A stretch of 64,000 nucleotides of DNA from Roseovarius confluentis (GTDB lineage Bacteria; Pseudomonadota; Alphaproteobacteria; Rhodobacterales; Rhodobacteraceae): NCBI RefSeq assembly GCF_002917925.1, contig NZ_PPFE01000001.1, positions 496,001 through 560,000 of the forward strand. Reading direction: 5' to 3'. This document shows positions 30,623 to 34,718 of the stretch, one piece after another. The notes beneath the pieces are model-generated. The model was not told where the DNA came from, did not search any database, and worked only from the letters and a program-made list of their open reading frames with translations. A program made the translations under genes and the position numbers. Each line of letters opens with the position of its first letter. The first letter of the stretch is position 1.

Positions 30623-30728
30623 ACCCATCGGGCGGTTTCACCCCGGTTTTGCCGCGAACAAGGCTTCACAGGGCCGATTTGCGTGCTAGGACCCTGCGTC
30701 AAGTCATGTGACAGGGAGCGAGAACATC

Positions 30729-31943
30729 ATGAATGGTTACCAGCATCTTTACATCCCCGGCCCCACCAATGTGCCGGAACCCGTGCGTCAGGCCATGAAC
30801 GTCCCCATGGAGGACATGCGCGCCCCGGATTTCCCCGATCTGGTGACCGGCCTGCTGGCCGACATGAAGAAAGCCTATCGGTTGGAGAACGGCCGGGTCT
30901 TCATTTTCCCGTCCTCCGGCACCGGAGCATGGGAAAGCGCCATCCAGAACACGCTGCAACCCGGTGACAAGGTTCTGATGTCGCGCTTCGGGCAGTTTTC
31001 GCTGCTCTGGGTCGACATGGCCGAGCGACTGGGCCTCGACGTGGTGCTGTGTGAGGTCGAATGGGGCAAGGGCGTGCCGCTGGAGGACTACGCCAAGCAC
31101 CTGAAGGCCGACACCAACCACGAGATCAAGGCAGTTTTCGCCACGCAGAACGAAACCGCGACAGGCGTGACGTCGGATATCGAGGGCGTGCGCAAGATCC
31201 TGGACGATGCGGGCCATCCCGCGATGCTCTTCGTCGACGGGGTCAGTTCCATCGCGTCGATCGAGTTCGAGATGGAGAAATGGCGTGTCGATCTGGCCGT
31301 GTCCGGCTCGCAGAAGGGCTTCATGCTGCCTGCGGGACTTGGTTTCCTCGGCGTCAGCGACAAGGCGCTGGAGGCCAACAAGCGGCTGGCCAATTCCGGC
31401 ATGTCGCGCTGCTATTTCAGCTTCGAGGACATGATCAAGCTGAACGACACCGGGTATTTCCCCTACACGCCTGCCACCCAGCTTCTGCGCGGGCTGCGCT
31501 GTTCGCTGGACATGATCCTGGACACCGGGATGGAAAGCATCTGGGCGCGTCACAAGCGGCTGGCCCAAGGCGTGCGCGCCGCGGTCGAGGCGTGGGACGG
31601 CTGCGAACTGGTGGCGCGCGGGCCGGAATGGGAATCCGACACGGTGTCGGCCATCTATTCGCCCGAGGGCGTGGATGCGCGCGACGTGATCTCGACCGCC
31701 TACAACAAGTACCAGACCTCGCTGGGCACCGGGCTCAACAAGCTGGCGGGCAAGGCGTTCCGCATCGGCCACCTAGGCTCGCTGAACCCGGTGATGCTGT
31801 GTGGCGCGATTTCGGCCGCGGAAATGGCGCTGGTGGATGCCGGGGCCAAGATCGAACCGGGCTCTGGCGTGGCCGCCGCACAGGCCCATTACCGCGACAC
31901 GACACCCGACAACGCCAAGGGCAGCACCGCCAAGGCGGCCTGA
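30729..31943 (+). CDS. sgaA: Serine-glyoxylate aminotransferase
   Basis: The class V, fold I aminotransferase starts at ATG 30729 (GGGAGCGAG upstream) and has 404 residues. IPGPTNVPEPVRQAM opens the protein; FPSSGTGAWESA binds the cofactor phosphate; VSGSQKGFMLPAGLGFL holds the PLP lysine. It transfers the amino group of serine to glyoxylate, giving hydroxypyruvate and glycine. The next gene reduces hydroxypyruvate and malate-CoA ligase follows, which supports serine-cycle use rather than the beta-hydroxyaspartate cycle. Confidence 0.9.
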   Translation: MNGYQHLYIPGPTNVPEPVRQAMNVPMEDMRAPDFPDLVTGLLADMKKAYRLENGRVFIFPSSGTGAWESAIQNTLQPGDKVLMSRFGQFSLLWVDMAERLGLDVVLCEVEWGKGVPLEDYAKHLKADTNHEIKAVFATQNETATGVTSDIEGVRKILDDAGHPAMLFVDGVSSIASIEFEMEKWRVDLAVSGSQKGFMLPAGLGFLGVSDKALEANKRLANSGMSRCYFSFEDMIKLNDTGYFPYTPATQLLRGLRCSLDMILDTGMESIWARHKRLAQGVRAAVEAWDGCELVARGPEWESDTVSAIYSPEGVDARDVISTAYNKYQTSLGTGLNKLAGKAFRIGHLGSLNPVMLCGAISAAEMALVDAGAKIEPGSGVAAAQAHYRDTTPDNAKGSTAKAA

Positions 31944-32022: not shown

Positions 32023-33000
32023 ATGAAAATTCTGGTAACGCGCGCCTGGCCGAAGGCGACCGAGGACCGTTTGACCAATGCCGGGCTGGGCGACGTGACG
32101 CTGCGCCATCCCGACACACCGATGAGCCATGACGAATGGATGGACGCGGCCAAGACCTACGACGTCATCATGCCCACCGTGTCGGACAAGATCCCGGCCG
32201 AGTTCTATCCGGCGGCCAAGGGCAAGGTGAAGATCTTCGCCAACTATGGCGTCGGCTTCAACCATATCAACATCGACGCGGCGGCGGCCAACGACATCAC
32301 CGTGACGAACACGCCGGACGTTCTGACCGATTGCACCGCCGACCTGGCGATGGGCCTCTTGCTGGCCGCGGCGCGCCGCATCGGCGAAGGCGAGCGCGAA
32401 ACCCGCGCGGGCGGCTGGGAAGGCTGGCGGCCCACCCACATGATCGGCAAGAAAGTCTCGGGCGCGACGCTGGGAATCATCGGCTTTGGCCGCATCGGTC
32501 AGGCGATGGCGCGCCGGGCCCATAACGGGTTCGGCATGCGCGTGGTGTTCCAGGACGCCTGGGAGGTGCCCGAGGACATCAAGGCCGCCAACGGCAATGC
32601 CGAACAACTGCCGAGCATGGTCGAGGTCGCGGCAGAGGCCGACTTCCTGTCGCTGCATTGCCCCGGTGGCGCAGACACCTACAAGATGATCAACGCCATT
32701 ATCTTCAACGCCATGAAACCCGGCGCGATCCTTGTGAACTCGGCCCGCGGTGACGTGGTGGACGAGGACGCGCTCTTTGACGCGCTCGACTCGGGCCAGC
32801 TGAGCGCCGCGGGGCTGGACGTTTATCACAACGAGCCGGCACTCGACCCGCGGTTCCTGGACTACGAGAATATTGTTCTGGCTCCGCACCTGGGCAGCGC
32901 GACCGACGGCACGCGCGAGGCCATGGGTTTCCGCGCGATCGACAACCTCGAGGCCTTCCTCAAGGGCAAAACACCGGGCGACCTCGTGACGCCGAAGTGA
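32023..33000 (+). CDS. D-isomer 2-hydroxyacid dehydrogenase, hydroxypyruvate/glyoxylate reductase
   Basis: ATG at 32023 with GGGAAGAG upstream gives a 325-residue protein. GFGRIGQAMARRA near residue 153 binds the nucleotide; NSARGDVVDE supplies the catalytic Arg and APHLGSAT the catalytic His. It belongs to the GyaR/HprA group. It follows sgaA by 79 bp and would turn hydroxypyruvate into D-glycerate, the second step of the serine cycle after transamination. Glyoxylate reduction is a common side activity. Confidence 0.9.
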   Translation: MKILVTRAWPKATEDRLTNAGLGDVTLRHPDTPMSHDEWMDAAKTYDVIMPTVSDKIPAEFYPAAKGKVKIFANYGVGFNHINIDAAAANDITVTNTPDVLTDCTADLAMGLLLAAARRIGEGERETRAGGWEGWRPTHMIGKKVSGATLGIIGFGRIGQAMARRAHNGFGMRVVFQDAWEVPEDIKAANGNAEQLPSMVEVAAEADFLSLHCPGGADTYKMINAIIFNAMKPGAILVNSARGDVVDEDALFDALDSGQLSAAGLDVYHNEPALDPRFLDYENIVLAPHLGSATDGTREAMGFRAIDNLEAFLKGKTPGDLVTPK

Positions 33001-33041
33001 TGTTCACCGGGTCTTAACCAAGCTGCGCCAAGGATCGGGCC

Positions 33042-33269
33042 ATGAGTCAGAATGGCCCTATCACCCCCGATGCGTGGATGGCGGATGTCTTTCGCGCAAA
33101 AGCCGCCAGAGACGGATGCATCATCCGCCGGCGTCTGCGCGATATCGACCGATATGTAGGTCGCGCGGCATTTCTTTCCGAACTCGAAAGACGAGGTTTC
33201 CAGGCGGTGGAAAACGCCGGGCAGCTTGTGATCTTCTGCAACAGAGAACCGCTTCGCCGGGTGCTCTGA
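33042..33269 (+). CDS. Small conserved basic protein, unknown function
   Basis: The 75-residue protein contains RRRLRDIDRYVGRAAFLSEL and ERRGFQAVENAGQLVIFCNR. I recall proteins of this form in Rhodobacterales that are sometimes named N-(5'-phosphoribosyl)anthranilate isomerase because of genome position, but it is far too short for that enzyme. It is likely cytosolic and has no membrane segment. It lies 41 bp after hydroxypyruvate reductase, and its stop is followed within 2 bp by the palindrome array. Confidence 0.7.
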   Translation: MSQNGPITPDAWMADVFRAKAARDGCIIRRRLRDIDRYVGRAAFLSELERRGFQAVENAGQLVIFCNREPLRRVL

Positions 33270-33270
33270 G

Positions 33271-33361
33271 CCGATTTCTTGCAAGAAATCGGAATGGAAA
33301 ATTGCAATTTTCCAGACCGGAATTTTCGAAAATTCCGGTCACCGTGACCCTCGCACGTGCG
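33271..33361. repeat. Array of adjacent perfect palindromes
   Basis: Three perfect, spacer-free palindromes lie side by side. Number one is 33271-33292 (22 bp, half CCGATTTCTTG), two is 33295-33314 (20 bp, half TGGAAAATTG) and three is 33315-33340 (26 bp, half GACCGGAATTTTC). Their centres, 33281.5, 33304.5 and 33327.5, are exactly 23 bp apart, and each centre reads TTGCAA or TTCGAA. Two smaller ones follow: GGTCAC-C-GTGACC (33337-33349) and CGCACGTGCG (33352-33361). Confidence 0.9.
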
Positions 33362-33398
33362 CCCTGACGGCATCCCGCCGCATTCCGCAGCGCCCGCC

Positions 33399-33420
33399 AC
33401 GGGTAGGATCGGCTACCCGT
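33399..33420. promoter_or_regulatory. Inverted repeat upstream of mtkA
   Basis: ACGGGTAG (33399-33406) and CTACCCGT (33413-33420) are perfect inverted repeats separated by GATCGG, about 107 bp upstream of the malate-CoA ligase start. The GGGTA/TACCC core recurs upstream of sgaA. A further CTACCCG appears near 33454. It is a candidate operator for coordinated control. Confidence 0.45.
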
Positions 33421-33527
33421 TCCGGCCCGAACCCCAACCCGGGGCGTGCATTGCTACCCGGGCGAAAGTATCGCGCAGACCGCATTCCGGACAGGATGAG
33501 ACAACATGATGCGAGGAGGGCATGTGC

Positions 33528-34718
33528 ATGGACATCCATGAATTCCAGGCCAAGGAGTTGTTGAGCGGCTTTGGCGTGAACATACCGCGCGGCGGCATCG
33601 CCTACAGCCCCGAGCAGGCAGTCTATCGCTGTTCGGAACTTTCGGGCAAAAGCTGGGTCGTCAAGGCGCAGATCCATTCCGGCGCACGCGGCAAGGCCGG
33701 CGGCGTCCGCGTCTGCAAGTCCGAGGAGGAGGTCTGGGATGCGGCCTCATGGATGCTGGGCCGCAAGCTGGTGACCCACCAGACCGGCCCGCAGGGCAAG
33801 CTCGTGGGCCGGCTTTATGTCGAGGAAGCCACCGACATAGCACAGGAGATCTACCTGGGCTTCGTGATGGACCGCAAGCTGGAGCGCGTCGTGGTCGTGG
33901 CCTCGGCCCAGGGCGGGATGGAGATCGAGGAGATCTCGGAAAGCGAACCCGACTCGATCATCCGCTCGGTGGTGGACCCCGCCGTGGGCATGCAGAACTT
34001 CCAGGCGCGCGAGATCGCGTTCTCGCTGGGCCTTGATCCCGCACTGATCAACCAGGCGGCCAAGACGATCATGGGCTGCTACCGCATGATGTGGGAAACC
34101 GACGCGAACATGGTCGAGATCAACCCGCTGGTGGTGACCGCCTCGAACGAGATCGTCGCGCTGGACGCCAAGGTCAGCTTTGACGAGAACGCGCTGTTCC
34201 GGCACCCCCACATCTCGGAACTGCGCGACAAGAGCCAGGAAGACCCACGCGAGACATACGCGGGCGACCGCGGACTGAACTACATCGGCCTGGACGGCAA
34301 GATCGGCTGTATCGTCAACGGCGCGGGCCTGGCCATGGCCACGCTGGACATGATCAAGATGGCCGGTGGCGAGCCTGCCAACTTTCTCGACGTGGGCGGC
34401 GGGGCCAGCCCCGAACGGGTGCTGCAATCCTTCAAGTCGGTGCTGAACGATCCCAATGTCGAGGCCATCCTCGTCAACATCTTCGCCGGCATCAATCGCT
34501 GCGACTGGATCGCCGAGGGCGTCATCCTTGCGGTCAAGGAGCTGGACCTGAAGATCCCGCTGGTGGTGCGCCTGTCGGGAACGAACGTGGACGAAGGCAT
34601 GAAACTTCTGGCCGACAGCGGGCTGGAAATCGAAACGGCCTCTTCCCTTGCGGAAGCGGCGGAAAAAGTGGTGGCCGCGTGGCGCTCCACCGACAGCGCA
34701 TATGCGGAGGCAAGCTGA
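33528..34718 (+). CDS. mtkA: Malate-CoA ligase beta subunit (succinyl-CoA synthetase-like)
   Basis: ATG at 33528 is preferred to 33522 because GCGAGGAGGG stands 8 bp upstream and the protein then begins [12 protein letters not shown] as in the family. It has 396 residues, an ATP-grasp domain ([20 protein letters not shown]) and [13 protein letters not shown] and [15 protein letters not shown] in the C-terminal CoA-ligase half. Together with the next gene it forms malyl-CoA from malate, ATP and CoA. Assignment to malate rather than succinate rests on the neighbouring sgaA and reductase genes. No sdh, suc or mcl genes are in the window. Confidence 0.82.

Follow-up and report, generated by a model that had tools for sequence, protein, structure and literature searches.

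The window, a stretch of 64,000 nucleotides of Roseovarius confluentis DNA, carries on its plus strand an open reading frame for a conserved small gene of 75 amino acids (33042..33269), which has relatives in the genus, and mtkA (33522..34718), which encodes malate--CoA ligase subunit beta (NCBIfam NF010647, scoring 693.9 bits where the cut-off is 604). An array of palindromes follows the stop of the small gene; the earlier note placed it between a small conserved gene and the malate-CoA ligase operon. Neither Pfam nor NCBIfam contains a match to the 75-aa protein at E<=0.001. The window also encodes a class-V aminotransferase (30708-31943) near a hydroxyacid dehydrogenase and malate-CoA ligase; its best NCBIfam match is BhcA, L-aspartate--glyoxylate aminotransferase, at 556 of 650 bits and so below the cut-off, and this neighbourhood probably belongs to serine-cycle or glyoxylate metabolism.

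The array consists of three perfect palindromes to which no strand is assigned. Hairpin A (33271..33292), class A of the order A-B-C, is a palindrome of 22 bp with a TTTCTTGCAAGAAA core and begins one base past the stop codon of the 75-aa gene, which ends at 33269. Hairpin B (33295..33314) spans 20 bp around a GGAAAATTGCAATTTTCC core, and hairpin C (33315..33340) spans 26 bp around a CCGGAATTTTCGAAAATTCCGG core. Their lengths, their centres at 33281.5, 33304.5 and 33327.5 and the resulting steps of 23.0 bp are confirmed as first described. These are the only perfect palindromes of at least 20 bp in the window, compared with a mean of 0.12 in 50 Markov sequences with the window's composition. 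The two smaller palindromes reported alongside them do exist (GGTCACCGTGACC at 33337-33349 and CGCACGTGCG at 33352-33361), but they do not belong to the element: both are out of the 23-bp phase and both are missing from G370, a sister species with a 97% identical 75-aa protein, and they are therefore regarded as incidental.

Folded as RNA, positions 33260-33375 form the three hairpins together with weaker outer pairing at -44.9 kcal/mol (z = -4.3; none of 200 shuffles equalled this), and the single hairpins A, B and C have energies of -10.1, -5.7 and -14.4 kcal/mol. A stable hairpin directly past a stop codon recalls an intrinsic (Rho-independent) terminator. However, the G+C-rich stem followed by a T-run that defines such terminators was not found, with 0 T-tailed terminator-like sites in 32900-33700, and the array differs further in having several hairpins in a row and few G-U pairs. 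The absence of a T-tailed site and the low G-U content of the array stems lead to the rejection of a plain intrinsic terminator. No Rfam 15 family matches the window above its gathering score.

The three palindromes belong, as a single copy, to a short dispersed repeat family and are not a lone regulatory site. A BLAST search with the window array found similar arrays in many places of the same genome. When ten triples from this genome were aligned, they shared the polar order A-B-C with 94.1% of cells paired, and changes on both sides were seen in 10 of 27 pairs, such that arm sequence varies while pairing is kept; 0 of 500 shuffles were as high for either paired cells or both-side changes. 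The covariance model R1, built from this alignment, delimits in the window a dispersed A-B-C element of about 70 bp (33270..33339, no strand assigned), whose near-identical copies are sharp-ended. With matches on both strands and overlapping matches merged, R1 recovers 25 A-B-C triple sites in the genome at E<=1e-3, the scores of the ten source triples being inflated by construction. The ~70-bp triple in fixed order A-B-C is the commonest form in Roseovarius, arrays range from 2 to 5 hairpins, and the longer ones carry the order on cyclically. One five-hairpin array occupies the same site in two species (G000:C1:774223 and L204 of G006); its first four units read A-B-C-A, which suggests growth by a higher period of 69 bp. 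The genome is unevenly populated, with 1 array in C1:1-400000 and 10 in the equally long C1:572691-972690, and genomes G016 and G035 also have long stretches without strong matches among the matches listed.

The spacing of the units follows from their anatomy. Each hairpin has a stem of about 8-11 bp, a loop of about 3-6 nt and a linker of 0-3 nt, and the period is near 23 bp because these sizes sum to it. When even-centred palindromes were scanned over C1:572691-972690, a region not picked by the 23-bp model and already known for its BLAST matches, ten pairs lay 23 bp apart and three lay 46 bp apart, while every other spacing up to 60 bp occurred at most once; the same scan at the same threshold gave no pairs in C1:1-400000. 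A wider sample of 80 loci from seven genomes (this one and six others of the genus) contained 89 arrays, in which neighbouring units scoring at least 7 were spaced 23.0 bp 129 times, 23.5 bp eight times and 24.0 bp seven times, a count biased by the selection of the loci as best matches of the 23-bp R1 model. The 89 arrays include three chance pairs, G+C-rich and spaced 22.5 bp (two at L149/L203 and one at L179), and unit order was analysed in all but ten arrays whose order is unclear. Stem mismatches amount to about 2% in the 80 loci, and self-complementarity is often absent from the four central bases. Orthologous sites recur in these and the later counts of spacing, order, context, mismatches, pair changes and divergence. 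Other genera have different loops and linkers, and periods from 22 to 25 are common there. The search for 23-bp-phased arrays proposed in the earlier note recovers a regularity shared by this genome and its kin, but one that gives way to 22.5/22.5, 24/24, 24 or 25 at the orthologous locus elsewhere.

These observations bear on the proposal that the array is a phased operator, bound by three protein dimers at intervals of about two helical turns. The symmetric centres would be expected of such a site, as would a strict period, which is kept at 23 bp in Roseovarius and in nine of the ten arrays sampled from Pseudooceanicola. However, 23 bp corresponds to 2.19 helical turns, or a rotation of about 69 degrees per step, so three sites would not be exactly on one face of the helix. 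Additionally, a conserved half-site sequence at fixed spacing was not found at orthologous sites: arm sequences change among copies and species, the period shifts to 22.5, 24 or 25 at the orthologous locus, and one-base loop insertions (L006 and L007) keep the hairpin while shifting the distance between half-sites. Promoter-type, divergent gaps are also under-represented among the sites. The operator is consequently considered very unlikely. Of the two possibilities raised at first, a hairpin array or phased dimers, the hairpin array is supported, but dimers bound on one side are at odds with the variable spacing, the changing arms and the rotation.

The element appears confined to one family in the samples examined. 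Within the genus, R1 finds the A-B-C triple in 29 of 36 genomes at E<=1, and no array was detected in the other seven; at E values of 0.4-1, three of 24 other class members were also matched, which is chance-like. Across the family, 68 of 295 genomes carry the triple at E<=0.001, and among 289 genomes of the class no match at this threshold lay outside Rhodobacteraceae, all 3 positives falling within the family. Double arrays are also present in other genera, with ten in 200 kb of Pseudooceanicola nanhaiensis and one in 200 kb of Sulfitobacter marinus, compared with 0 in the Markov controls (each a single sequence). Nine of the ten Pseudooceanicola arrays are spaced at exactly 23.0 bp; the tenth, G+C-rich and spaced at 25.5 bp, is probably unrelated. 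The copy number in Pseudooceanicola may be higher than the approximately 25 of the R. confluentis genome. The Pseudooceanicola loci (L376-L385) include two recurring double-array subtypes, GGAAAAT/CCGTTTTC and AAATTCTTCGAAGAATTT/CAAGAATTTTCGAAAATTCTTG, which are twice found as neighbours about 85-87 bp apart.

The locus behind the 75-aa gene can be followed across both genus and family. mtkA was located in 57 of 60 genomes of the genus; of 30 mtkA loci taken, 14 including that of the window have the 75-aa gene nearby, its relatives in the 13 other genomes being 56-97% identical, and the array was judged in those 14. At least two phased hairpins lie behind the stop of the gene in 13 of the 14 loci, the window included, and the fourteenth (G008) retains one hairpin that scores, next to a second that has visibly decayed. 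Spacing is 23/23 in five of these loci, 22.5/22.5 in one and 24/24 in two, and is 23, 24 or 25 in the two-unit arrays. Relatives of the 75-aa protein are present in many genera of Rhodobacteraceae, and none was found in viral contigs. A scan of genomes with six 75-aa proteins yielded 153 loci, 80 of them named; an array with units at most 120 nt from the stop follows the gene in 51 of the 80, while 0 of 800 random control windows from the same loci pass the same rule. In 31 of these loci, at most 15.5 nt separate the centre of the first hairpin from the first base of the stop codon. Of the 29 named loci without an array, 17 have a stop at least 54 nt past the match and resemble longer paralogues. 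The downstream neighbour, in part called crudely as the longest open reading frame, belongs to several unrelated groups on either strand; mtkA occupies this place in the window and in other Roseovarius without being a constant partner of the array. As the downstream gene varies, it is the end of the 75-aa gene, and not the neighbour, that the array accompanies.

Two variants were observed behind relatives of this gene. In Roseicyclus and a relative (L348, L352 and L355), the arrays have three or four hairpins whose arms differ and whose centre is mostly CTGCAG, as if this were the recognised part. At five other loci (L320, L333, L338, L343 and L347), the gene is followed by a different single hairpin, which is CGAAATCTTTTCAAGATTTCG in three of them and carries paired changes in the other two.

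An association with gene ends extends to the dispersed copies. A home-made gene caller places 69 of the 89 arrays between genes, with 28 in convergent, 35 in codirectional and 6 in divergent gaps, a tally in which orthologous sites are counted repeatedly and which leaves out 20 arrays overlaid by the caller's open reading frames. The loci of the R. confluentis genome alone give 6 convergent, 10 codirectional and 1 divergent, and those of G016 alone give 7, 8 and 2 (excluding the unrelated pair at L179), compared with 56 convergent, 208 codirectional and 102 divergent among background gaps of 75-600 bp in 864 kb of the former genome. Arrays favour convergent genes, and divergent gaps are under-represented. 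In codirectional gaps, the array is closer to the stop of the upstream gene than to the next start in 28 of 35 cases, and the A-B-C polarity is random with respect to the direction of transcription. Contexts and distances are approximate, since the caller overlooks small genes including the 75-aa gene; with the same caller, four of the nine Pseudooceanicola arrays lie within open reading frame calls and the others show no clear pattern. The earlier note had held that similar clusters throughout the genome, if plain terminators, would undermine its proposal; clusters are indeed found through the genome and mostly at gene 3' ends, which nearly fulfils what the note had set as its refutation, but the window array lacks the T-tailed site of a terminator.

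Comparison of orthologous sites in close species, where the array is usually present if both flanks can be matched, indicates that the stems change slowly. In 23 of 30 locus pairs, the remaining seven being left out of the count, stems differ at 28 of 1086 positions (2.6%), loops at 49 of 268, linkers at 66 of 387 and flanks at 735 of 5437 (13.5%), so that loops and linkers diverge by 17-18%. Among changed stem pairs, 29 are one-sided and 1 is compensated in 26 locus pairs, a set that omits the four pairs with cassette-level differences; all 30 pairs together give 34 one-sided, 7 compensated and 6 changed on both sides without pairing. The predominance of one-sided changes implies that paired change is slow, or proceeds by exchange of whole cassettes. 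It also disfavours an explanation in which template-switch (quasipalindrome) correction, and not selection, keeps the arms perfect. Template switching is a known process, described as making imperfect inverted repeats perfect or more perfect (PMC7202029), and it would not favour G-U pairs. However, correction of this kind is difficult to reconcile with the ratios of 29:1 and 34:7 or with stems that are slower to change than loops, and it is regarded as extremely unlikely.

Cassette-level differences occur at two orthologous sites, where array identity is 0.65-0.69 and flanks are 83-93% identical. At the L003 site, the arrays of R. confluentis and G012 are TTGCAA-type and those of G006 and G035 are GCGC-type, while the window array has an identity of 0.65 to that of G006 and 0.69 to that of G012. 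Copies also disperse, since G016 has arrays identical at 69 of 70 positions in flanks that are unrelated, with identity at chance level. One site in G006 (L195) is occupied where four relatives are empty; no target duplication can be read there, the occupied site being about 140 bp longer and including other sequence around the array. At another site, G035 lacks about 46 bp, or two periods, and the R. confluentis copy is decayed. Such loss and decay, together with the 29 of 80 loci without an array and the 7 of 36 genomes in which none was detected, show that the element is not essential.

This behaviour is what would be expected of a neutral or selfish REP-like repeat with no role at its sites: genomes of the genus differ in copy number, starting from 0, near-identical copies have unrelated flanks, sites are occupied or empty with copies decaying, and whole cassettes differ at two orthologous sites. 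However, the gap between the divergence of stems and that of flanks, as well as the recurrence of the array after one and the same gene in many genera, require either selection or repeated targeted insertion, and make a repeat without any role improbable.

REP and BIME elements lie at gene 3' ends, and the RIME/ABC-type elements of rhizobia are alphaproteobacterial intergenic palindromic mosaics. By description the present element can be likened to the latter, though R1 has no match outside the family in the sample of 289 class genomes. It resembles REP/BIME in being short, extragenic, palindromic, dispersed and a mosaic of unit types (PMC3116915), and its short palindromic unit is repeated in intergenic space, with 25 sites in the genome and 69 of 89 arrays intergenic. 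Unlike REP/BIME, which have a conserved unit, an imperfect core and hundreds of copies, it has varied and nearly perfect stems and about 25 copies, and it is distinguished by its fixed period of about 23 bp, its A-B-C order and its restriction to Rhodobacteraceae in the samples examined. A REPIN, defined as a pair of inverted REPs associated with a RAYT gene (PMC3116915), likewise unites several palindromes that spread together; the present element instead joins three different units in polar order. Membership in the REP/RAYT group is rejected, as the Y1/RAYT transposase (PF01797) has 0 matches in the R. confluentis genome (G000), while 5 of 14 control genomes are positive.

Whether the stems act as RNA or DNA can be approached through their mismatches. 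On the sense strand, the stems behind the 75-aa gene have 8 mismatches in 1179 pairs, 3 of them G-U (57 of 80 named loci; the other 23, mostly longer paralogues, have neither array nor trace), and those of 33 codirectional Roseovarius loci have 6 in 807 pairs, 2 of them G-U. Together the sets, which share two orthologues of the window locus, give 5 G-U and 5 A-C. Single T-tailed hairpins in the same genome have 50 mismatches in 878 pairs, with 26 G-U and 6 A-C; the ratios of 26:6 and 5:5 rest on few events, and it is mainly the scarcity of wobble pairs in the arrays that makes the contrast. One-sided changes between close orthologues comprise 9 GU and 11 AC. Stems oriented by A-B-C order give 12 GU and 6 AC, an asymmetry that is uninformative because this polarity is random to transcription. 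Additionally, the central dinucleotide is complementary in 159 of 199 cases, where 132.5 are expected from the marginals, and in 52 of 81, where 30.5 are expected, the count from the named loci omitting 25 of 80 (those without arrays and two doubles); in Pseudooceanicola it is complementary in 19 of 26 against 17.2 expected from the marginals.

The array stems lack the wobble expected of selection on RNA only, and this is the main result against a transcript-end model. It is in keeping with a DNA-level element, in which the palindromes would work in the form of cruciforms or of hairpins in single-stranded DNA; they could, for instance, provide gene ends with a site of topology or gyrase type, or be what a mobility enzyme works on. 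The lack of preference for G-U over A-C (5:5 and 9:11) is as if both strands matter, and the random polarity, the dispersal of copies and the excess complementarity of a central dinucleotide that is unable to pair in a hairpin agree with such a role. However, the wobble argument is softened by the short, AT-rich stems, which may not afford wobble, and by the small number of events, only ten being of wobble type; the central-pair excess may have been inherited from a perfect ancestor; and presence behind one gene with a bias towards stop codons fits a role at transcript ends better. A DNA-level function is accordingly considered rather unlikely.

The analysis establishes a genuine element that is widespread in the family, has conserved stems and is tied to gene ends. 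The moderately favoured explanation is that of a dispersed Rhodobacteraceae repeat of back-to-back hairpins acting as a 3'-end element of the preceding gene, based on its position close behind stops, its recurrence at the same gene across genera, its slowly changing stems and its dispersal. Consecutive hairpins in the transcript would define its 3' end by pausing or by termination together with Rho, and may form a barrier to 3'-5' exonucleases that protects this end. Each palindromic unit would serve both strands, which would fit the excess at convergent genes. These roles in termination and mRNA protection are suggested by place and structure, and the element is best read as BIME/REP-like at the 3' end in its likely working, yet failing REP/RAYT membership. 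A further and doubtful possibility is that it represents a dedicated multi-hairpin mark of transcript ends at stop codons in Rhodobacteraceae, tandem, perfect, without a T-tail, effective on both strands and spread without RAYT, which would be read by a family-specific protein or DNA structure. No description of such an element was found in open-licence PubMed Central papers, including the excerpted texts of PMC3116915 (REPINs), PMC12306157 (RepRanger), PMC7202029 and PMC6060812.

For this widespread bacterial family, the finding adds a family-wide repeat of strict architecture that probably marks or protects the ends of messages. It raises a question of mobility, as copies are dispersed in a genome that lacks the transposase by which REP elements are explained in other bacteria. 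Furthermore, it turns the ending and protection of transcripts at tightly packed and at convergent genes into a question that is testable at a named locus.
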